From NCBI RefSeq assembly GCF_030705305.1, contig NZ_JAUZEE010000002.1, positions 276,374 through 340,373 on the forward strand: a stretch of DNA of 64,000 nt. The letters are read 5' to 3'. Below the pieces are notes generated by a model, which searched no databases, had not been told where the DNA came from, and saw only the letters and a program-made list of their open reading frames with translations. Position 1 is the stretch's first letter. Each line of letters starts with the position of its first letter. Positions 1-9,407 of this stretch are shown one piece after another. The position numbers were made by a program, and so were the translations under genes. The stretch is from Leptothrix discophora (GTDB lineage: Bacteria; Pseudomonadota; Gammaproteobacteria; Burkholderiales; Burkholderiaceae_C).

Positions 1-1
1 T

Positions 2-211
2 ATCTTCAACCCCAATAGAGCACACGCCAACGAGGCTGCGGAGTGGTTGAAGACACAAGGCTACACCTATCGCAAGAATACAAAGCAGTATCGGATAGCC
101 TTTGAGACGACCTACAACCGTGGTGAAGTCGGCTATGTGCATCGTGAACCGCGTGCTACGGCCCCGGATCTATCGTCGGTAAGGCTGGTGCGCACATCAA
201 AAAACCGCTGA
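2..211 (+). CDS. C-terminal part of an unrecognised element protein, cut by the window edge
   Basis: An open frame enters from the left edge and ends at TGA 209-211, leaving 69 residues. The visible part contains an AAEWLKTQGYTYRKN segment followed by a basic tail ending RTSKNR. No family is recognised. It sits immediately before the repeat array at 212-439. In many mobile elements a replication protein gene adjoins its origin, so a replication role is possible, but that rests only on position. Confidence 0.45.
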   Translation: MFNPNRAHANEAAEWLKTQGYTYRKNTKQYRIAFETTYNRGEVGYVHREPRATAPDLSSVRLVRTSKNR

Positions 212-439
212 AGTGACTATGAGTGACTATCTATTGCTTGAGATAGTCACTCATAGATCAGTCGAGATAGCGTGAAATAGGGTCGAGATAACGTAAGATA
301 GGGTCGAGATAGGTGCATATATACTACTAAGTTACTATAGTTACTATAGTTACTATCTATTTATAAACTAATATAGCAATAGCAGTATGTATGTATGCAC
401 AGACCTTGTTTTCGATAGTAACTTAGTAACGATAGTCAC
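212..439. repeat. Array of 9-bp motifs and 21-bp tandem repeats beside A+T-rich DNA; origin-like or partition-like site
   Basis: The motif GT(G/T)ACTAT recurs on both strands: plus-strand copies begin at 213, 223, 331, 340 and 349, and inverted copies lie at 242-250, 414-422 and 431-439. Copies 223-231 and 242-250 are arms of a perfect 12-bp inverted repeat (221-232 and 241-252) with an 8-nt loop. Between the clusters a 21-bp unit beginning GTCGAGATA repeats at 261, 282 and 303 (two full copies and one partial). Bases 316-400 are strongly A+T rich. Iterons of about 21 bp next to A+T-rich DNA are the usual plan of an iteron origin; partition sites and phage regulatory regions can look similar. 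No convincing gene is seen in 212-592. Confidence 0.6.
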
Positions 440-548
440 GCCGGTTCTTGTTGCGCGGGTGGAGCAGCTATGAAATCGCAACGACGCGCTGACCCAATAG
501 ATAAATAAAACTGAACGCTCACGCCATTGCGTTCCTCCTAAGAAGTAG

Positions 549-579
549 GCCCCGAGTAGCAATACCCGGGGCTTTTTTT
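549..579 (+). terminator. Intrinsic terminator
   Basis: The 6-bp stem GCCCCG (549-554) pairs with CGGGGC (567-572), with a 12-nt loop, and is followed by seven T residues at 573-579. It would end rightward transcripts coming from the repeat region just before the small HTH gene. No protein gene is evident between 212 and this point, so the terminated transcript may be non-coding or come from the gene at 2-211. Confidence 0.75.
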
Positions 580-592
580 GTGCGCGATAAAT

Positions 593-796
593 ATGCATAT
601 GGATGACATTGACCGCTTACTAATCAAAGCAAAGAAAGCTCTTGAAGAGAAGGAGCCACCTTGGAACGAAGTTCGCAAGAAGATGTTTATTGAGAGCTAT
701 ATCAAGAACAACGGCGTTCGCAATGCAATCGCACGCGACTTGGGAATACACAGGAGTTATGTGTTTCACCTAATCCAGAAATATGAGCTTATTTAG
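593..796 (+). CDS. Small helix-turn-helix protein
   Basis: This encodes 67 residues from ATG 593, or 65 from ATG 599; neither has a strong ribosome binding site. The N-terminal half is a charged helix (IDRLLIKAKKALEEKE). The C-terminal half, about residues 35-67, looks like a Fis-type helix-turn-helix: NGVRNAIARDLGIHRSYVFH, with the expected Ala and Gly positions. It lies directly after the repeat array and its terminator, so it may bind those repeats or control element genes. It could equally be a truncated resolvase-type or Fis-like regulator. The fold call is fairly firm; the role is inference. Confidence 0.65.
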   Translation: MHMDDIDRLLIKAKKALEEKEPPWNEVRKKMFIESYIKNNGVRNAIARDLGIHRSYVFHLIQKYELI

Positions 797-1451
797 AAAA
801 CAAAACAGCGAAATGCCTTTGTGCAGCGAATGATTGAGTGCCGTGGGCAATGATTGACACCCGCCTCCGGTATTTTTTTGTCAACCTAAAAATCGCCTTT
901 GTTACGACTTTTACATGTTGTGGGATCTACCGCCACACAGCCATTCGTAACCCAGGTTGACGTAACCGTGATTACATAACCCTCGTGGTGGTCTCTTCAG
1001 AATGAATAAAGGTCAACCGATATATTAGACGAAAGTCGTTATTATTCTGTAGCCATTACAGCCAAGGCCGCGAGGCTTGCAGCCTCGCGTAGACCGTGAC
1101 AATCAAGTGACACACCCTAAGAGACCGTCGCGAGGCTGCATAACCTATTGATTACTGGAAGGTTTTCAAGCCTAAGAACGGTCGAGTCAGGGTGTGTCGT
1201 ATATGGTGTATTACTTACACCACCTTGATAAACGTGATTGCACTCTGTCAACCTATTGTGCTTTCATTGTGTCGGGTCGAATAGCTGTTCAATGTGCCAG
1301 GACATTGGTTGACAGAGTGGGGCACCCGCGTTTGGAAATGGAGTGATGCGGTTGCGATGGCATCTTTATTTTGGACAGCTAAAAACCCTCGGGATACCAC
1401 CCTTCGATAACCGGGCTCCATTATTCAAACATCGGAAGCGTGCCATAGCTC
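797..1451. other. Structured non-coding stretch with five GTCAACC motifs and several perfect hairpins
   Basis: No plausible gene is seen in these 655 bases. GTCAACC or its complement occurs at 880-886, 955-961, 1012-1018, 1247-1253 and 1307-1313. The last two are part of a perfect 13-bp inverted repeat (1241-1253 with 1307-1319). Other perfect inverted repeats are CGCGAGGCT/AGCCTCGCG at 1069-1077 and 1081-1089 with a 3-nt loop, GACACACCCT/AGGGTGTGTC at 1109-1118 and 1189-1198, and TGGTGTA/TACACCA at 1204-1210 and 1216-1222. GCGAGGCTGCA recurs after 1129. This could be a protein-binding region, a transfer or replication site, or a structured RNA. Confidence 0.55.
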
Positions 1452-2198
1452 CTATTCTTTTGGCTGCGTTCTCTTTTTGATACCCGGAAATATTGCTGTT
1501 CGACTCTTGATCAAGTCAGCCCTGGTCTTAGGGTCGCTCTCGAAAACATCAGACAGGCTTGTCGGCACGAACCCCTTCCGTTCCGTAATCAGTTTTTTTA
1601 CTTGTAGTTCATCCTCGCCGTTCTCCTTTCTGACGCGATTGCCAACTTCTTGCAATGCCTCAGATAGTTTTGAGATTTCTTCAACAGAGTTAGAAAACAA
1701 TGGCTCGCCTTTAGCGGTCAGTTTATGCGCTTCGATTGCCGCTTCAATCGCTGCAACTTCAATCATTGCAGTCTGCGCTCGGAACAACGCCCGTTGTGCA
1801 AGCGATTGACTTGCAAGCTCGGCGCGTGAAGCAGCCATCTCTTCCCGCTGCAATCGAAGTTCTTCCCGCTGCAACTTCAGCTGTTCTTGCTGCGTTCGAA
1901 GGGATAGAAAAACAGCTAAGAACGCGAACCCGCTGAACAGCGAGTTGACGACACCAAACGTATCGCCAATCTGCCCGCGCGTCGGCCAATCCTTGCCTAT
2001 CAATATTGCAAGCGCGGGTATCGTTACCCATAGCACCAATACGGCCCAATACATTCCTTTCCGACTATCTTCAGGTGCCGCTGGTTTCTCAGCTTGAGCA
2101 GCTTCCACAGACTCTTCGTGCTCAGTGTGTTCGACTTGCGGAGTAGTCTCGTCTACTTCAGTAGTCTCAGCGGATTGCTTTTGGTTATCTTCACTCAC
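1452..2198 (-). CDS. Membrane-anchored coiled-coil protein of unknown function
   Basis: About 248 residues. An acidic N-terminal segment (roughly 1-45) is followed by two hydrophobic helices (about 50-70 and 85-105) around the motif GDTFGVVNSLFSG, then a long heptad-like helix with LKLQREELRLQREEMAASR. Proteins with a G-D-x-F-G-x-x-N-x-L-F-S-G motif and a QR-E-L coiled coil are common hypotheticals in bacteria, and the layout recalls putative abortive-infection membrane proteins; that likeness is by eye only. AGGAGG directly abuts ATG 2204, leaving no spacer, whereas GTG 2198 lies 6 nt from it, so GTG is preferred. It follows the gene at 2240-2716 by 41 bp, probably in one transcript. Confidence 0.7.
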   Translation of the reverse strand: MSEDNQKQSAETTEVDETTPQVEHTEHEESVEAAQAEKPAAPEDSRKGMYWAVLVLWVTIPALAILIGKDWPTRGQIGDTFGVVNSLFSGFAFLAVFLSLRTQQEQLKLQREELRLQREEMAASRAELASQSLAQRALFRAQTAMIEVAAIEAAIEAHKLTAKGEPLFSNSVEEISKLSEALQEVGNRVRKENGEDELQVKKLITERKGFVPTSLSDVFESDPKTRADLIKSRTAIFPGIKKRTQPKE

Positions 2199-2239
2199 GA
2201 TCATCCTCCTTCAGTTGTCTATAGTTCAGTGCTTGAGCG

Positions 2240-2716
2240 TCATTCGTTTTGCGATCTGACAATGACATATGCGGCATAGAACCGAACACCGAATGTCAGC
2301 ACAACCATACCGAACAACAAACCGACTCCGCTCCATTGCGAATGGAACGCTGCTGCCAACATGCCGATTGGAACAACACCAACACCAGCAATGATCAAGC
2401 CTATGAATACGGCCCATCCGCCCCAAAGTTCGTAGGAGAAGAGAAACCCACTCAACCAGGCTACCACTCCAAAGTAATAGGAGAACAGCATCATTGCATG
2501 ACCAGCAATAGCTCTGGTTGCACGCAGGAAGGACATTGGAAGCGCGACAAGTAAAGTTATCGCTACCAAGATCCATCCAATCTCTATCATTGTCGGAAGG
2601 ACATTTCCTGAGATCCAATGGATTCCCAAGAAGAGAAATCCGACAACAATACCGATGATTGCCATTATTGCAAGCAACACGGCAATAGATCCAATACCTT
2701 TGAGTCTTTCAAGCAT
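2240..2716 (-). CDS. Small polytopic membrane protein, unknown function
   Basis: 158 residues, mostly hydrophobic, with about four membrane helices (about residues 8-30, 38-58, 68-92 and 98-150 in two passes). Start ATG 2716 is chosen because GGGAGG lies 4 nt upstream. The longer open frame to 2989 runs through the opposite-strand HNH gene and lacks this signal. No catalytic motif is seen and no family is recognised. It is the first gene of a leftward pair with the coiled-coil membrane protein at 1452-2198, which suggests the two act together in the membrane. A defence or superinfection-exclusion role is conceivable on context alone. Confidence 0.65.
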   Translation of the reverse strand: MLERLKGIGSIAVLLAIMAIIGIVVGFLFLGIHWISGNVLPTMIEIGWILVAITLLVALPMSFLRATRAIAGHAMMLFSYYFGVVAWLSGFLFSYELWGGWAVFIGLIIAGVGVVPIGMLAAAFHSQWSGVGLLFGMVVLTFGVRFYAAYVIVRSQNE

Positions 2717-2806
2717 GTAGCCTCCCATTGGCACTTGTTGCGTCGTTCGATTGTGAAGCCGCGTCTGTGCGTTGTCCAACACAGGGCGCACCAGACTAAA
2801 TAGTGC

Positions 2807-3124
2807 GTGGACCATCTGCGCACCTATGCACGCCTCATCGACCAAGCCCAAGCCCGCCTGCTGCTGTCCAGCCACGGCTACCACCTGCACCACATCGTGC
2901 CCAAGAGCCTGGGCGGCACTGACGACACCAGCAATCTGGTCTTCCTGACCCACCGAGAGCACGTGACTGCTCACACCCTCCTGGCGCACATCTGGCCCAA
3001 CCAGTGGTTTGCGGTGCAGATCATTGCGCTTCGCACGCGCCAGCGCCTACCGCGTTGGAAGCGGCGTCGCATCACGTGGCAAACAGCATTGGTGCATCGG
3101 CTTGCACGCGCTCGCGGCGTGTAA
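2807..3124 (+). CDS. HNH endonuclease, small phage/homing type
   Basis: 105 residues from GTG 2807; an in-frame stop lies just upstream at 2801. The core HHIVPKSLGGTDDTSN, then NLVFLTHREHVTAH, is the classic HNH fold of phage and homing endonucleases: His-His at the start of the beta hairpin, the GG-x-D-D-x-x-N-L turn, and the final EH-x-x-x-H metal-binding helix. The C-terminus is very basic (RWKRRR and later Arg residues), suiting DNA binding. Such genes often sit free-standing in phage genomes and nick or cut DNA. It is divergent from the membrane-protein pair. No intron boundaries are evident around it, so it looks free-standing. Confidence 0.85.
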   Translation: MDHLRTYARLIDQAQARLLLSSHGYHLHHIVPKSLGGTDDTSNLVFLTHREHVTAHTLLAHIWPNQWFAVQIIALRTRQRLPRWKRRRITWQTALVHRLARARGV

Positions 3125-3163
3125 TACGCGACATACCGCATTCGTAAAGAGGTCCGAAACGGA

Positions 3164-3185
3164 TCACATTCGGCTAAATATGTGA
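3164..3185. promoter_or_regulatory. Inverted repeat upstream of a small gene, possible operator
   Basis: TCACAT at 3164-3169 is mirrored by ATGTGA at 3180-3185 with a 10-nt spacer, and flanking GG/CC bases extend the symmetry with a gap. It lies 21 bp before the start of the gene at 3207. A repressor site is possible; the binding protein is unknown. Confidence 0.35.
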
Positions 3186-3206
3186 CCCATAAAGGACTGA
3201 TTTACT

Positions 3207-3407
3207 ATGCAAAACACACCAAAAATAGCCGAAATAAAACATATGGTAGTGCGACCTATCGCTAACGGAATGATCGTGGAAATCGAGACGGATTCTGACG
3301 ATCTAACCTTCAGCTTCAAGACCTACCGCCAAGTGCTGCGCTTCCTAAAGAGCTTGGAAGCGCCTAACCCTAACCAAAAGAAAGCAACCGATAGACCCGG
3401 CGCATAA
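3207..3407 (+). CDS. Small hypothetical protein
   Basis: 66 residues. AAAGGA lies about 10 nt before the ATG, an acceptable ribosome binding site. The sequence has two beta-rich stretches (MVVRPIANGMIVEIET and LTFSFKTYRQVLRFLKS), then a basic, proline-containing tail. No family is recognised. It lies 92 bp before the integrase on the same strand and could be a small regulator or excision factor, as is common beside integrases. It has no clear helix-turn-helix, so this is only a possibility. Confidence 0.55.
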   Translation: MQNTPKIAEIKHMVVRPIANGMIVEIETDSDDLTFSFKTYRQVLRFLKSLEAPNPNQKKATDRPGA

Positions 3408-3499
3408 CCACGACTCAGCTGTTCCGGTCGCCCTGTAACAAGAAAATCAGCACACTTGACTCAGCACGCCTAAATAGGTGTCTAAACAAGGAGTCCAAG

Positions 3500-4546
3500 A
3501 TGGCGTTGATAAAGAGAGGCAATGTGTGGCACGTTCGCGTGCAGATAGCGGGCGTGATGATTGCGCGCTCAACCAAGACCAGCAATAAGCGGCAAGCTGA
3601 GATGCTGGAAGCAAAGTGGGTGAATGAGGTTCACTCAGAAGTGGTCGTAGCTGGGCGCAGGCCCGTTACCGTGCAGCGGGCGTTTGAGGTGTTCTTAGAG
3701 AGCAGGCGTGGCACAGCTGGATATGAAAGCTGTGCGGTCAAGCTCCGTGCATTCGATCCCTTCCTGAAGAGGCAGCTTACGGAGGTCACCGCCGCGGAAC
3801 TGCGTGCGCGTGCGCTGGAGCTTGTTGATGAAGGCTATTCGATCAACACGATCAACGTATCGATCATTTACTGGAATGCGATCCAGAACCACTGCACCAA
3901 GGCTGGCTACACGGCTGGCGTGAAGATCAAGCGCCTAAAGGGCGGGGAAGGGCGCGTGCGCTTCCTATCGGACACAGAAGTGGATCAGTTGCTGGCTGCA
4001 CTGGACCCCGAATCGGGCGCTTACCGGGAGCGGCGCAAGGCGCAAGACAACCTGGACTTCACCGTGCTGCTGCTGCACACAGGCGCACGCGAGCAGGAGA
4101 TTGCGCGGCTCAAGCTGAGCCAAATAGATCAAGCGGCCGGCACCATCACCATCCACCGCAGCAAGGGCGGCACGGACACCACGCTGAAGATGAGCCGTGC
4201 CGTGGTCGAGCTTGTGGCGCGCAGGATGGTTGCTGCTGAGGCCCCGCTGCCTGAAGGCCAGTCGCTGCATGGGCGTGCGGACGAGACGCACCTGTTCCCC
4301 GAGCGTGCCAAGGGGCGCTACAACAACGAGTTCATCAACAAGGCTGCAGCCAGAGCCGGGCTCCGGGACGTGACCTGCCACGTGATGCGGCACACCTTCG
4401 CGTGTCGGATGCTCCGCGCAGGGCTGTCGCTCAACGAGGTGCAGCACTTGCTGGGGCACAGGCACCTGACCAGCACGATGCGCTACGCGCACCTTGTGCC
4501 CAATCTGACAGCCACCCGGGCTGCTGAGGTGCTGGACGCCAGCTGA
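3500..4546 (+). CDS. Tyrosine recombinase (phage-type integrase)
   Basis: 348 residues, full length for the family. An N-terminal segment (1-50) resembles the AP2-like arm-binding domain, residues 55-145 a SAM-like core-binding domain, and 155-345 the catalytic domain. All catalytic residues can be read: R197 in TGAREQE, K222, H294 and R297 in CHVMRHTF, H320 in LLGH, and nucleophile Y329 in MRYAH. AAGGAG lies 8 nt before the ATG. It probably catalyses insertion of the element into the fumarate hydratase gene and its excision. The gene is intact, so the element may still be able to move. It lies about 1.9 kb from the right junction, with accessory genes between. Confidence 0.95.
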   Translation: MALIKRGNVWHVRVQIAGVMIARSTKTSNKRQAEMLEAKWVNEVHSEVVVAGRRPVTVQRAFEVFLESRRGTAGYESCAVKLRAFDPFLKRQLTEVTAAELRARALELVDEGYSINTINVSIIYWNAIQNHCTKAGYTAGVKIKRLKGGEGRVRFLSDTEVDQLLAALDPESGAYRERRKAQDNLDFTVLLLHTGAREQEIARLKLSQIDQAAGTITIHRSKGGTDTTLKMSRAVVELVARRMVAAEAPLPEGQSLHGRADETHLFPERAKGRYNNEFINKAAARAGLRDVTCHVMRHTFACRMLRAGLSLNEVQHLLGHRHLTSTMRYAHLVPNLTATRAAEVLDAS

Positions 4547-4912
4547 CGCGCTGCAAGACCCCCTACAAGCCCCGCAAGGGGCATTGACCCCGTAGGCGGT
4601 GTGGGCTTAGGCCCAAATCGAACCCATAGTGCAAAAGCCCCTCCCGAAGGGGCTTTTCTCATTTACGGGCATCGCTCTAAATCCACCGAAAAACGCGCAA
4701 TCCTGGGAAAAACTTTGCCCGGGTAAGGGGTAGGTATAGGTCGGTCGTTTTTATTGGCTCCGACGTTTCTATATCTTCCGAGCTAACTTTGACAAGCGGT
4801 CTCGCCGGCTCCTACATTTGAGTCCTGCCGCAGCAATCAACAGCAGCACGTAAGTCAGACGCCTAAAGGAGGCCCTGACGAGCGTGCAGCCTGCGGCATG
4901 GAGAGATAACTC
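4547..4912. other. Gap after the integrase; no gene seen
   Basis: Apart from a terminator at 4633-4657, the stretch holds a short GCCCC-GCAA-GGGGC hairpin at 4569-4582, 23 bp after the integrase stop, which may protect or end its transcript. Opposite-strand open frames here look like chance reading. No tRNA or promoter could be supported. Confidence 0.5.
4633..4657. terminator. Bidirectional intrinsic terminator after the integrase
   Basis: AAAAGCCCC (4633-4641) pairs with GGGGCTTTT (4649-4657) across a 7-nt loop. T-runs exist on both strands, so it can stop transcription either way. It separates the integrase from the acidic-protein genes that start at 4913. Confidence 0.8.
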
Positions 4913-5296
4913 ATGACTTATAAAAAGGACTGCATCGTATGTGATGTGAAGATAGCGAACGAAGACTCCGTGTGGGTCTATGTGCGCATTGATCGAACGG
5001 CGTGGGATCAGCTCACGCCCACTCAGCGATATGCCTTCGTTCACTTGCTTATTCGTGACAAGCTTGTGGATGGAGTTATTTTTGATTCATTCTCTATCCT
5101 GGGCCAAGAGACCAACGGGTGGCGACCTGTTTATGAGACAGGCAACGGTATCAAAGTAACGATTGCTGATCTTGAGCAGTTCGGTGCCATTGGCTACAAG
5201 TGGGAGCTCAAGGGCTTCACTACTGAAGCCGAGATGTGGGAGTGCGAAGGCTTCAGCGACGACGAGGACCTTGAAGACGAAGAGGAGGCAGCATGA
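4913..5296 (+). CDS. Acidic protein of unknown function, module family copy 1
   Basis: 127 residues, preceded by GGAGAG about 9 nt before the ATG. No known domain is recognised. The protein carries the segment AWDQLTPTQRYAFVHLLI and ends in a long Asp/Glu run (DDEDLEDEEEAA). The next gene contains two segments of the same form, WDSWSPRERYTYFRKRAI and WDQADPPRRVELLYEAA, so all three appear related. The stop overlaps the next start (ATGA at 5293), implying translational coupling. Highly acidic small proteins in mobile elements are sometimes DNA mimics or inhibitors, but no homologue is known to me and that is speculation. Confidence 0.7.
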   Translation: MTYKKDCIVCDVKIANEDSVWVYVRIDRTAWDQLTPTQRYAFVHLLIRDKLVDGVIFDSFSILGQETNGWRPVYETGNGIKVTIADLEQFGAIGYKWELKGFTTEAEMWECEGFSDDEDLEDEEEAA

Positions 5297-5964
5297 GCAT
5301 CGACCCTAAAGACCTGTTCCTGCGTGCCGAGTGGCGGCGCGATGACCAGCTGGTGCAGTCTGCGCACTTCCCTTGCCCGGTGGATGTGTGGGATAGCTGG
5401 TCGCCTCGGGAGCGGTATACCTACTTCCGAAAGCGGGCGATTGAACAATGCGAGCCCGGCATCGAAAAGGATTGCACGCTGCATATGGACTGCAAGTGGC
5501 TTCGTTTCGAGATCGACGGCATGATTGTTGACACCGTCGAAGAACTTATCAAGGACGACTTCCTCCAGGAAGAGTGGCACCTCTATGGGCACGAATCCAA
5601 GGAGGAATACGAAGCCGAGGTGTGGGACGACGATGATGATGAAGGCGATTACGGGGTCTGGATGATTGCTTTCAGGGTCTATTGCACTTTTCATCACCAC
5701 GGATCACATTGGGAGGATGCCCTGGTCGAGTCCGATAAGTGGGACCAAGCTGATCCACCTCGGCGTGTCGAACTGCTTTATGAAGCAGCCAAGGAAACGT
5801 GTCTGGAGGCCGGTTATGGCCCGGTCGAAGGGGTTTTCGTCGTTCACGAAACGGATCACGTCGTCACGCTGTCGCAGGTGGCCCTTTTCACGTCTCAGGC
5901 GGCTGTAGATATGAAGTTCGCCAAGCTCGAGTTCGTTAGGGAGGACGAAGTTGAGAAAGCGTAA
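5293..5964 (+). CDS. Acidic protein with two copies of the same module
   Basis: 223 residues, starting in a 4-bp ATGA overlap with the gene before. The N-terminal half (about 1-115) parallels the whole upstream protein: a W-D-x-x-S/T-P-x-x-R-Y segment, then a W-x-L-x-G turn and an acidic run (DDDDDEGD). The C-terminal half (about 120-223) begins again with a beta-rich stretch and WDQADPPRR. The two genes therefore look like products of duplication and fusion of one unit of about 110 residues. The function is unknown. A very basic mini-gene follows at 5951, overlapping by 14 bp. Confidence 0.7.
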   Translation: MSIDPKDLFLRAEWRRDDQLVQSAHFPCPVDVWDSWSPRERYTYFRKRAIEQCEPGIEKDCTLHMDCKWLRFEIDGMIVDTVEELIKDDFLQEEWHLYGHESKEEYEAEVWDDDDDEGDYGVWMIAFRVYCTFHHHGSHWEDALVESDKWDQADPPRRVELLYEAAKETCLEAGYGPVEGVFVVHETDHVVTLSQVALFTSQAAVDMKFAKLEFVREDEVEKA

Positions 5965-6043
5965 GTTCCGCTATGTGCGACTTTGGCTGCTGAAGGCTCG
6001 GTCCCGCAGGCGTTGGATATCCAGCGGAGGGTGGCGCCGATAG
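5951..6043 (+). CDS. Possible very basic mini-protein (30 residues)
   Basis: The frame opens at TTG 5951 with GGGAGG at 5939-5944, a 6-nt spacer away, which is a much better ribosome binding site than most in this element. It encodes about 30 residues, nearly half Arg or Lys, with RKRKFRYVRLWLLK near the start, and stops at TAG 6041-6043 just before a strong hairpin. It overlaps the end of the acidic gene by 14 bp, as coupled genes do. A basic peptide made beside two acidic proteins might bind them or nucleic acid. The TTG start and small size make it uncertain. Confidence 0.35.
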   Translation: MRKRKFRYVRLWLLKARSRRRWISSGGWRR

Positions 6044-6047
6044 AAAA

Positions 6048-6075
6048 AGCCCCCAGGACTTACACCCTGGGGGCT
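6048..6075 (-). terminator. Strong hairpin with a T-run on the minus strand
   Basis: AGCCCCCAGG (6048-6057) pairs perfectly with CCTGGGGGCT (6066-6075) over an 8-nt loop. AAAAA at 6044-6048 reads as a T-run for leftward transcription, so it terminates transcripts entering from the chromosome side. It may also stabilise the 3' end of the rightward acidic-gene transcript. Confidence 0.65.
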
Positions 6076-6293
6076 AATGATGCGGTTTCACATTTTGTTG
6101 GCGTCTAAAACCATCACCTAAAAGCCGCCTTAGAGCACTCTCACGGGTGCAATAAGGGATTTTGTGATCGGCCAGCCGGGGAGGGCAACCGGAAAGCGAG
6201 GGCCTGTGCCCCGTCACGCCGTGCGTAACTTTTGTTGAACTCCGCTGCACGCTATATTGCACACACAGCGGGGTCAAAGCACCAAAAAATCCA

Positions 6294-6384
6294 ATCAAAT
6301 CAATGACTTGCGCCAGAAATGTCGTGTGTTAGCGGCAGATGCTGCTTTTTACTTGAAGTTATCCAAGCAAGTCGTTGATTTCAT
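6294..6384. repeat. Imperfect 17-bp inverted repeat near the element end; candidate integrase arm sites
   Basis: The 17 bases at 6294-6310 match the complement of 6368-6384 at 15 of 17 positions; both contain GAAATCAA- or CAAATCAA-like cores and end in GACTTG. They lie 25-115 bp inside the right junction. Tyrosine recombinases with an N-terminal arm-binding domain use such sites next to the crossover. The assignment is inference from position and symmetry. Otherwise 6076-6391 shows no gene. Confidence 0.4.
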
Positions 6385-6391
6385 TGACTTT

Positions 6392-6472
6392 TTAGCCGCG
6401 TGCTGAATAGCTGATGTACTGCAGCGCGGCGGCGACGCTCTCGACGAGGTCGGCTTGACGGATGGTGGTCAT
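6392..6472 (-). pseudogene. fumA: 5' fragment of class I fumarate hydratase, truncated by the element
   Basis: Reading left from ATG 6472, the frame gives MTTIRQADLVESVAAALQYI and then SY before turning into element sequence (SARG) and TAA at 6394-6392. The start of betaproteobacterial class I (iron-sulfur) fumarate hydratase is MTxIRQADLIxSVAxALQYISYYHP, so about 22 codons are native. The intact enzyme, about 500 residues, interconverts fumarate and malate. The missing part should lie at the far left end of the element. The neighbouring yqhA gene on the same strand fits the usual Burkholderiales order. Recognition is from memory of the family, without a search. Confidence 0.85.
6403..6424. 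other. Right attachment junction (attR) of the element, approximate
   Basis: Native fumarate hydratase codons extend through the TAT codon at 6409-6407, where the family has TAC TAC CAC CCG; the sequence then diverges. The crossover core should lie within roughly 6407-6424 and be repeated at the left end of the element, outside this window. The exact core cannot be set from one junction. Confidence 0.6.
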
Positions 6473-6586
6473 GGCGGTCACGGGGGGGTGAGCAGGCAAG
6501 GCGGTCAGTTTAGCCAGCCGACCCCCGCCACAGCCTGACAGGTGTCACCCCGAACGCGCTGCGCGCGCGGTCGGGATCCGTCGTCG

Positions 6587-7186
6587 TCAGTGGTGACCGC
6601 CGTCCTTGGCCGGCACCGTCATGAGCTTGTCGGTGTAGGCGATCGCCAGCGCCGACAGCAGGAAGACCACGTGGATCGTGGTCTGCCACAGCAGCACCTT
6701 CTCGGTGTAGTTGTCGGCGTTGATGAAGGTCTTGAGCAGGTGGATCGAGCTGATGCCGATGATGGCGGTCGCCAGCTTGACCTTCAGGACCGAGGCATTG
6801 ACGTGGCTGAGCCACTCGGGCTGGTCGGGATGGTCCTCGAGCCGCAGCCGCGACACGAAGGTCTCGTAGCCGCCGACGATGACCATGATCAGCAGGTTGG
6901 AGATCATCACCACGTCGATCAGCGCGAGCACCACCAGCATGATGATGGTCTCGTTCAGGCCGCTGACCGGCACGTCGCTCTTGTAGCCGATGCTCTTGAC
7001 CAGCTGCTCCAGCGCGTGCTGGTTGCCGAAGGCCGCCTCGATCAGGTGGACCAGTTCGACCCAGAAGTGGAAGACGTAGACCGCCTGCGCCAGGATCAGC
7101 CCCAGGTAGAGCGGCAGCTGCAGCCAGCGGCTGGCGAAGATCAGGTTGGGCAGCGGGGCGAGCTTGACTTGTGCAGGGTCCTTCAT
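6587..7186 (-). CDS. yqhA: YqhA/UPF0114 family inner-membrane protein
   Basis: 199 residues from ATG 7186, chosen because AGAAGAG lies 4 nt upstream and the family starts near MKDP; an upstream ATG at 7228 is the alternative. The family hallmark [16 protein letters not shown] begins at about residue 15. Four membrane helices are visible (about 22-45, 78-105, 138-155 and 168-190). The biochemical function of UPF0114 is unknown. Fumarate hydratase follows on the same strand after 114 bp, and they may once have been co-transcribed. Confidence 0.9.
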
Positions 7187-7352
7187 CGGGCTCTTCTGGG
7201 GTTCGGGATCGGGTTGGAGGGGCGCCACCGGGGTGGTGGCATCGGGAAAACCGGAGCGATTCTAGGGTTGGGCCATGTCAGGATGACGGCGGATTCGCGA
7301 GCCCCGGCCACTTGCCTGACGGCGGGTTGACAAGCCGCTGCACCGCAGAGTC

Positions 7353-7436: not shown

Positions 7437-9407
7437 ATGAGCGAAGCCGAGATCAAGCTGTACAACCCGAGCGCCGCGGTCCAGGCCGCTGCCCATGTGT
7501 CCGGCATGGCGGCCTACCAGGCCCTCTGCGACGAGGCCGAGCGCGACTACGAAGGCTACTGGGCCCGTCTGGCGCGTGAGCTGCTGTCCTGGAAGACGCC
7601 GTTCACCAAGGTCCTCAACAGCGACCACGCGCCGTTCTTCAAGTGGTTCGAGGACGGCACGCTCAACGCGTCCTACAACTGCCTGGACCGCAACGTCGAG
7701 CGCGGCCTGGGCGACAAGACCGCCATCATCTTCGAGGCCGACGGCGGCGAGGTCACCCGCGCGACCTACAGCGAACTGCTGGCCCGCACCAGCCAGATCG
7801 CCAACGGCCTGAAGGGCCTGGGCATCACCAAGGGCGACCGGGTCGTCATCTACATCTCGATGTCGATCGACGGCGTCGCGGCCATGCAGGCCTGCGCCCG
7901 CATCGGCGCGACCCACTCGGTCGTGTTCGGCGGCTTCTCGGCCCAGTCGCTGCGCGACCGCATCGAGGACACCGGCGCCAAGGCGGTCATCACCGCCGAC
8001 TTCCAGGTCCGTGGCGGCAAGCAGCTGGCGCTCAAGAGCATCGTCGACGAGGCGATCGCGCTGGGCGGCTGCGACTCGGTGGCCAACGTCGTCGTGGTCA
8101 AGCGCACCGGCGCGCCGATCAGCATGACCGCCGGCCGCGACATCTGGATGGACGACCTCGTCGCCGGCCAGTCGACCACCTGCGAGCCGACCTGGGTCGA
8201 GGCCGAGCACCCGCTGTTCCTGCTGTACACGTCCGGTTCGACCGGCAAGCCCAAGGGCGTGCAGCACAGCACCGGCGGCTACCTGCTGCATGCCGCGCTG
8301 ACCACCAAGTGGACCTTCGACCTGAAGGCCGACGACGTGTTCTGGTGCACCGCCGACATCGGCTGGGTCACCGGCCACACCTACATCACCTACGGCCCGC
8401 TGGCCCTGGGTGGCACCGAGATCGTGTTCGAGGGCGTGCCGACCTACCCGGACGCCGGCCGCTTCTGGAAGATGATCCAGGACCACAAGGTCTCGATCTT
8501 CTACACCGCGCCGACGGCGATCCGCTCGCTGATCAAGGCCGCCGAGGCCAACGACGCCGTGCACCCGAAGAGCTACGACCTGAGCAGCCTGCGCCTGCTG
8601 GGCTCGGTCGGCGAGCCGATCAACCCGGCCGCCTGGGAGTGGTACCACCAGCACATCGGCGGCGGCCGCTGCCCGATCGTCGACACCTTCTGGCAGACGG
8701 AGACCGGCGGCCACATGATCACCCCGCTGCCGGGCGCGACGCCGCTGGTGCCGGGCTCCTGCACGCTGCCCTTCCCCGGCATCCAGGCCACCGTGGTCGA
8801 CGAGACCGGCAAGGAAGTGCCGTGGGGCCAGGGCGGCATCCTGGTCGTCAAGAAGCCGTGGCCGTCGATGATCCGCAACATCTGGGGCGACCCGGAGCGC
8901 TTCAAGAAGTCCTACTACCCCGAGGACTTCAAGGGCCAGCTCTACCTGGCGGGCGACGGCGCGATCCGTGATGCCAAGACCGGCTACTTCACCATCACCG
9001 GCCGCATCGACGACGTGCTGAACGTCTCCGGTCACCGCATGGGCACGATGGAGATCGAGTCGGCGCTGGTCAGCTGCACCGAGCTGGTCGCCGAAGCCGC
9101 CGTGGTCGGCCGTCCGGACGACACGACCGGCGAGGCCATCTGCGCCTTCGTCGTGCTCAAGCGACCGCTGCCGGTCGGCGATGAGGCCAAGGCCATCGCC
9201 AAGCAGCTGCGCGACCACGTCGGCAAGGAAATCGGCCCGATCGCCAAGCCCAAGGACATCCGCTTCGGCGAGAACCTGCCCAAGACCCGCTCCGGCAAGA
9301 TCATGCGCCGCCTGCTGCGCTCGATCGCCAAGGGCGAGTCGATCACGCAGGACACGAGCACGCTGGAGAACCCGGCGATCCTCGGCCAGCTCGGCCAGAA
9401 CTACTGA
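7437..9407 (+). CDS. acs: Acetyl-coenzyme A synthetase (AMP-forming)
   Basis: 656 residues, typical length. The enzyme activates acetate to acetyl-CoA through acetyl-AMP in the cytoplasm. Visible motifs are the adenylate-forming signature [11 protein letters not shown] near residue 262, the WQTETGGH region near 419, [16 protein letters not shown] near 520, and the C-terminal [11 protein letters not shown] near 615, whose lysine is the usual site of regulatory acetylation. GGAGAC lies 6 nt before the ATG. A gene of its own, with a hairpin in the leader. Acs feeds the glyoxylate and TCA cycles, so it belongs with the adjacent fumarate hydratase locus by metabolism. Confidence 0.97.

Follow-up and report, generated by a model that had tools for sequence, protein, structure and literature searches.

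A fumA fragment in a 64,000-nucleotide stretch of Leptothrix discophora DNA (the window; positions 276374–340373 of contig C22, NZ_JAUZEE010000002.1, in genome G000) is very probably the right attachment site (attR) of a prophage that carries a re-coded 5′ end of the class I fumarase gene and thereby restores the full-length enzyme at the left attachment site (attL). Window positions are contig positions minus 276373; features are collected in Table 1.

Host fumA Stub and Native DNA at the Right Junction

Leftward translation from window position 6472 yields MTTIRQADLVESVAAALQYISY, followed by SARG and a stop codon. A preliminary description had recognized here the start of a class I fumarate hydratase, ended by a stop after ∼22 codons, together with a shift to A+T-rich element DNA, and had placed a mobile element within fumA near codon 22. 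The translation bears out the truncated start; the element has 52% G+C, compared with 71% and 66% in the measured flanks; and the insertion is supported, the fragment lying at a junction of a 40.4-kb prophage. When the family genomes were searched with the 22-residue N-terminus (E ≤ 1), 380 of the 399, counting the own genome, had a match, and the fumA starts of two relatives (G002 and G008) are identical to the stub peptide. As judged from sequence, the 22 residues of the stub are the native fumA N-terminus.

The preliminary description also proposed a comparison with relatives lacking the element. Such a relative is G007, in which the site is empty and fumA uninterrupted, and the intergenic layout, UPF0114 gene, and acs gene upstream of 6472 match those of G007; identity between the two genomes is 96% for fumA, 92% for UPF0114, and 96% for acs. 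A tRNA gene as the integration target was ruled out, the window containing none.

Table 1. Features of the fumA junctions and their surroundings (window positions unless a contig or locus is named)
Feature	Position	Strand	Remarks
Right part of 40.4-kb prophage (C22:242386-282778)	1..6405	.	Cores, composition, phage families
Tyrosine integrase of element, 348 aa	3500..4546	+	PF00589, E 5.3e-29; phrog_1; frame intact
Candidate arm site	6369..6390	+	Starts with AAGTCGTTG at 6369-6377, + strand; role inferred
Host fumA 5′ stub	6392..6472	-	22 native codons 6472-6407, 4 element codons, stop 6394-6392
Right attachment-site core, 13 bp, AATAGCTGATGTA	6406..6418	.	Identical copy at C22:242373-242385, element's left end
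Native fumA upstream region, now severed from gene body	6473..6586	-	Layout as in G007
UPF0114 / TIGR00645 membrane protein, host gene upstream of fumA	6587..7228	-	Neighbour in G007 92% identical
Acetate-CoA ligase (acs), host gene	7437..9407	+	Neighbour also in G007, G060, G061, G209
TGTCA/TGACA clusters upstream of element-borne starts	L005:4440-4560 (C22:242439-242559); L047:2739-2858; L044:3741-3860		

Gene Content of the Prophage

Between the two cores lie genes for a large terminase, scaffold, head-tail adaptor, tape measure, and minor tail proteins, a VapE/primase-helicase-like protein, and a weak portal match, all outside the window. PHROG matches include phrog_2, phrog_64 (weak), phrog_194, phrog_477, phrog_24, phrog_30, and others. 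With terminase, portal (weak), head, and tail genes in one block, the element is, by its predicted gene content, a tailed-phage provirus. Terminase relatives were found in IMG/VR at five loci (32–41% identity).

The integrase gene is directed towards the core, from which it is separated by 1.86 kb on the side of the stub. The two ORFs between integrase and core (4913–5296 and 5293–5964) have no family matches. Elsewhere in the right part of the prophage there are an HNH-type ORF (PF01844, phrog_655; 2807–3124) and a 250-residue ORF (1452–2204) with similarity to DUF6082 below threshold. The 9-mer AAGTCGTTG, with which the candidate arm site begins, is common to G000_dn, G000_up, and G061_up: it recurs in the prophage left arm, on the opposite contig strand, and in the left arm of an island in a Burkholderiales MAG (G061; see below), where it is opposite relative to fumA.

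The Left Junction and the Rebuilt fumA Gene

The core sits inside the 5′ coding part of fumA, over codons 19–22 (peptide YISY), and its two copies are 40,406 bp apart on C22, the left copy directly preceding the fumA body. At this far end the preliminary description had expected the rest of fumA, which is indeed there, and a repeat of 6407–6424; a repeat is present, but it comprises the 13 bp of the core rather than all of that segment. An element-encoded GTG-ATIKYADLVESVAAALQYISY precedes the fumA body in frame, and the element-borne N-terminus VATIKYADLVESVAAALQYISY replaces the host sequence encoded by the stub. The stub and the element copy have 18 of 22 residues in common, with the start scored as a mismatch.

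The resulting frame (C22:240916–242439, minus strand) is complete, with 507 codons of class I fumarase and no internal stop. It is the sole class I fumarase found in the genome by family search (one PF05681 match); an intact class I fumarate hydratase elsewhere, which the preliminary description had named as speaking against its reading, was not found by that search. Since the element carries its own first 22 codons of fumA, the cell regains a complete gene. Of the outcomes envisaged earlier, a new start supplied from the element's far end thus proved right, with the addition that the lost 22 codons come from the element too, whereas a dead fumA, with FumC taking over, was rejected because the hybrid frame is complete over all its codons.

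Recurrent Use of the fumA Site

Scanning contigs with the integrase recovered relatives on L038 (75% identity; Rhizobacter MAG, G060) and L039 (71%; the Burkholderiales MAG, G061), as well as a partial match of 29% on L040. A scan of the family at E ≤ 1e-60 gave 1 of 398 other genomes, G209, with an integrase 49% identical. At E ≤ 1e-50, no integrase but the own one was found among the 398 other order genomes and 368 other class genomes sampled; the family, order, and class sets are overlapping samples, with at most five candidates scored per displayed genome. A single-sequence search of IMG/VR with the integrase returned no relatives, and a four-sequence alignment returned L059 and L060 (33 and 34%) plus two partial matches (20–22%). 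Plasmids gave no match at E ≤ 1e-30. The best-ranked of 510 named-phage records is 27% identical over 97%, and the two of the 510 with a 60–80% match must be partial.

A fumA 5′ stub accompanies the integrase in 6/6 records in which it is full length and at least 33% identical (the window, L038, L039, G209, G1160, and G1161). Outside this count stand the partial L040, L061, and L062 (20–29%), two partial matches in the own genome (27–30%), and the 510 phage records. All six stubs end at YISY; this point in fumA thus serves a small group of integrases as attachment site, and the elements that encode them bring along a substitute for the fumA 5′ end. Both junctions were seen in four cases, namely the G000 prophage, G061 (L039 and L044), G209 (L046 and L047), and G1161 (L060 and L071), and in each the break falls directly after the YISY codons, at codon 22 in the window and at codon 23 where the host has an extra residue. 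In G1161 the two junctions are on one 36-kb IMG/VR contig; in G061 and in G209 they are on different contigs, for which reason we infer, for each genome, that they are two junctions of one element. For G060 the stub was seen on L038, and the contig with the fumA body starts at residue 66.

The homologous codon is targeted in these other hosts by elements with different cargo, so the site is not a one-off. The G061 element encodes a DndB protein (PF14072), an FtsK-type ATPase whose match to DndE is below threshold, and a protein with a PAPS-reductase domain; the fumA site may therefore host phosphorothioation or defence islands. The placement and direction of the integrase relative to the core vary among the window, its three nearest relatives, and the IMG/VR phages. 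On L038, L039, and L046 (G209) the integrase gene is on the stub side and transcribed away from the core, with its start ∼260–300 bp from it. In the two IMG/VR records it is at the end opposite the stub, which in L060 is the fumA-body side, at a distance of ∼0.5 kb.

The two ends of the G061 element differ in the base that follows TACATCAGCTA (fumA sense), so the part of the core common to the three diverged stub/patch pairs is TACATCAGCTA. The sequence ATCAGCTA was found in 22/25 native fumA starts (25 parsed of 29 relatives' loci). Two matches to the 22-residue query occurred in 18/399 family genomes. The second match was read at the sequence level in four of the 17 besides G000: it is a real stub in G209, a degenerate stretch in G254, and fumA at contig ends in G093 and G374. 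The other 13, judged from the search results, are mostly long open frames or have E > 0.1; the best match of G175 is in a 166-residue frame and that of G310 in a 351-residue frame. The G254 stretch (L048:4081–4134, minus strand; E 0.2) reads HADLVERVAALQYIG, is degenerate and resembles the fumA N-terminus; an intact fumA, read in the same direction, follows 2.3 kb downstream. The stretch may be a scar left by an old insertion, although by itself it is weak evidence.

Silent-Site Divergence of the Phage-Borne 5′ End

Over the 16 codons before the core, the G000 stub and the 5′ end carried by the element (the patch) differ by 11 synonymous and two non-synonymous changes, with 4/2/12 differences at codon positions 1/2/3, and the stub has a third-position G+C of 0.88, the element copy one of 0.50. 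The corresponding values are ten synonymous and three non-synonymous changes (6/4/11) for G209, where the element copy reads MTIIKQADLIESV... and the host stub TTSIAQNDLIESV..., and seven synonymous and five non-synonymous changes (5/3/10) for G061, where the element copy reads MTIIKYADLVESV... and the host stub TTTIRQADLIDSV...; with seven against five codon changes, the silent-site bias is weaker in G061. A coding patch must keep its protein and a bare homology arm need not, so the mostly silent differences suggest that the patch protein is under selection.

In the IMG/VR phage the patch matches the stub at every fumA codon and departs from it at a few places ahead of the start; it also takes in ∼30 codons from the 3′ end of UPF0114. 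Since patch and stub agree over these codons, the G1161 pair demonstrates the layout and not the replacement. Patches of this form (L060 1–360 and L071/L072; IMG/VR 3300031088_000394 and 3300028588_000058) were probably freshly captured. With one patch near-identical to host DNA and those of the other elements re-coded, the comparison suggests that patches begin as captured host 5′ DNA and then drift silently under selection on the protein.

Proposed Mechanism

In the mechanism that we favour, the prophage would integrate by means of its tyrosine integrase, the presumed agent at the fumA core, into a core of ∼11–13 bp over the YISY codons. Beside its own core the phage would hold a re-coded fumA 5′ end consisting of a ribosome-binding region, a start codon, and 22 codons. 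With this 5′ end next to the phage core, integration would leave the host's own 5′ end stranded in the attR stub, while at attL the fumA body would be joined in frame to the version brought by the phage, giving a full-length enzyme; excision would undo the 5′-end exchange. The mechanism is built on features seen directly in the DNA: the two junctions, a hybrid gene in frame, a relative whose site is empty, two more diverged replacement pairs, and the silent-site bias. The hybrid fumarase would presumably be active, and the phage 5′ end would be expected to contain a working promoter. We count against the mechanism that no sigma-70-like site was found on the fumA strand in G000 or G061, that the G000 start is GTG and not ATG, that integrase placement is variable, that the silent-site bias is weaker in G061, and that the G000 and G209 leaders are not clearly homologous.

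Leader of the Hybrid Gene and Alternative Readings

The hybrid start codon is preceded by a plausible ribosome-binding stretch, AAAGGG, and CAAGGACTTA before the ATG is common to G061 and G209. In a consensus scan for one promoter type, the sequence ahead of the element-borne start had no sigma-70-like promoter on the fumA strand in any of G000, G061, and G209; the scan of the G209 leader gave one promoter-like match, on the other strand. The G000 patch leader (366 nt, non-coding) is homologous to the leader of the G061 island, with a local score of 30 that was reached by 0/500 two-base-block shuffles (maximum 18). By the same test, homology is unclear between the G000 and G209 leaders (24/500 shuffles reach the score) and between the G061 and G209 leaders (107/500).

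TGTCA/TGACA motifs number four in the 120-bp leader of G000, one in that of G061, and three in that of G209, each leader having one at −53 to −55, and the G209 cluster holds an inverted repeat, TGTGACAG-N3-CTGTCACA. Of 4022 overlapping windows taken across the prophage, 0.17% are as rich in the motifs as the G000 leader. The motifs could be operators or recombinase arm sites. A general rule by which TGTCA is a host operator copied from native fumA promoters was rejected, as 25 native leaders average 0.2 motifs per 120 bp, although G007 has two. Short ORFs divergent from the patch, L005:4807–5295 in the prophage and L044:4094–4639 in the DndB island, lack significant Pfam support and are candidates for a shared regulator. 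An H-NS-like identity, at first suspected for them, was dropped, Pfam at 0.1 being weak or empty for both; L005:4807–5295 has no Pfam or PHROG match at 0.001.

The leader gives rise to two regulatory proposals. According to one, which we regard as doubtful and which would rest on the predicted operator-like character of the TGTCA cluster, the cassette does more than repair the gene: the prophage puts class I fumarase under a phage-owned leader, so that lysogeny re-sets TCA flux or makes fumarase depend on what state the prophage is in. Class I fumarases are oxygen-sensitive as a class. If the proposal is true, elements that retain a tuned metabolic promoter would be favoured at the site.

According to the other, excision acts as a genetic switch, with fumarase low or phage-controlled in the lysogen and the native promoter back upon excision. 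The integrase frame is intact and the cores match, integration severs the native upstream region, the element leaders differ from the native ones, and the four motifs in 120 bp of the G000 leader compare with a native mean of 0.2. A switch is nevertheless unlikely, since no excisionase was identified, the motifs could instead serve as arm sites for integrase or excisionase, and there is just one of them in the G061 leader but two in the native leader of G007. The near-identity of the IMG/VR patch to host DNA, including UPF0114 3′ sequence, argues that expression is kept as before.

A knockout of fumA, with the in-frame start at the far end arising accidentally through the core match and FumC running the TCA cycle, is very unlikely. 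The genome does have a FumC-like gene (C6:35207–36565), and no promoter-like site precedes the hybrid start; but the best family match of the FumC-like protein, TIGR00979, scores 599.9 bits, below the curated cut-off of 664.75, and the fumA body is still 96% identical to that of the empty-site relative and free of stops. An accidental join would not yield 18 common residues in frame with silent-site divergence, plus two other diverged pairs. The class II fumarase-like gene is not needed to explain the fumA locus. It is extremely improbable that local duplication or an assembly join, and not an attachment site, accounts for the 5′ fragment, for although the junctions of G061 and of G209 are on separate contigs and contigs also end at fumA where no element is visible (G093 and G374), both G000 junctions lie within one 605-kb contig, G1161 has both on a single contig, and the stub is near the integrase on the same contig in the window, L038, L039, and G209.

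Relation to Known Integrative Elements

Prophage integration that rebuilds fumA has close parallels. As described in passages of PMC4482086 and PMC8409611, dusA-specific prophages and islands are integrase elements of varied cargo that enter a conserved gene at its 5′ end and substitute sequence of their own; the fumA elements resemble them in that phage and island alike do so. They differ in their target, a TCA-cycle class I fumarase rather than a tRNA-modifying enzyme. For one element of the dusA kind, IMEVchUSA3, PMC8409611 reports lacZ fusions that showed a new promoter together with a changed N-terminus (61% identity over 35 residues). The fumA swap is shorter (22 codons) and nearer the host protein (18/22); expression has been shown for IMEVchUSA3, whereas the present case is made from sequence.

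The same source gives SXT in prfC as integration at the 5′ end of a conserved gene (PMC8409611), and in the SXT/R391 ICEs, according to PMC2791158, integrase and site define the family. The likeness to the fumA element lies in the 5′ end entered, but SXT/R391 are conjugative elements of Gammaproteobacteria and the fumA element is a tailed-phage provirus. An island of Pseudomonas putida KT2440 splits tmk, a split that, according to PMC10653934, is apparently unrepaired, the activity being attributed to another kinase, PP_1964; it too is inside a conserved metabolic gene, but in fumA the frame is restored. The Xylella remnants pd-r1, ol-r1, and xap2 are placed by a passage of PMC2605562 between a fumarate hydratase gene and a division protein, near tRNA-Cys; they adjoin the fumarate hydratase gene, whereas the prophage described here is inside fumA.

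By the features tested (a tyrosine integrase, identical cores, a new in-frame 5′ end with a stub, an empty site, and recurrent use of the site), the fumA prophage belongs with the dusA and prfC kind of 5′-replacing integrative elements. No earlier report of fumA as a 5′-replacement target was found in the parts of the open literature searched: the passages of PMC2605562 and PMC7272582 do not report it as one, and PMC12884075 contains neither "fumA" nor "fumarate". The mechanism is a known one; any novelty would lie in the target gene, fumA.

A stub such as that in the window may be labelled a broken fumA by automatic annotation. The integrases could become tools with a defined attB in these bacteria, and the several pairs of element and host offer a gauge of how much drift of the phage-borne N-terminus is tolerated while the enzyme must work. 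A core TCA-cycle gene joins the protein genes that are entered at their 5′ end and rebuilt by mobile DNA.
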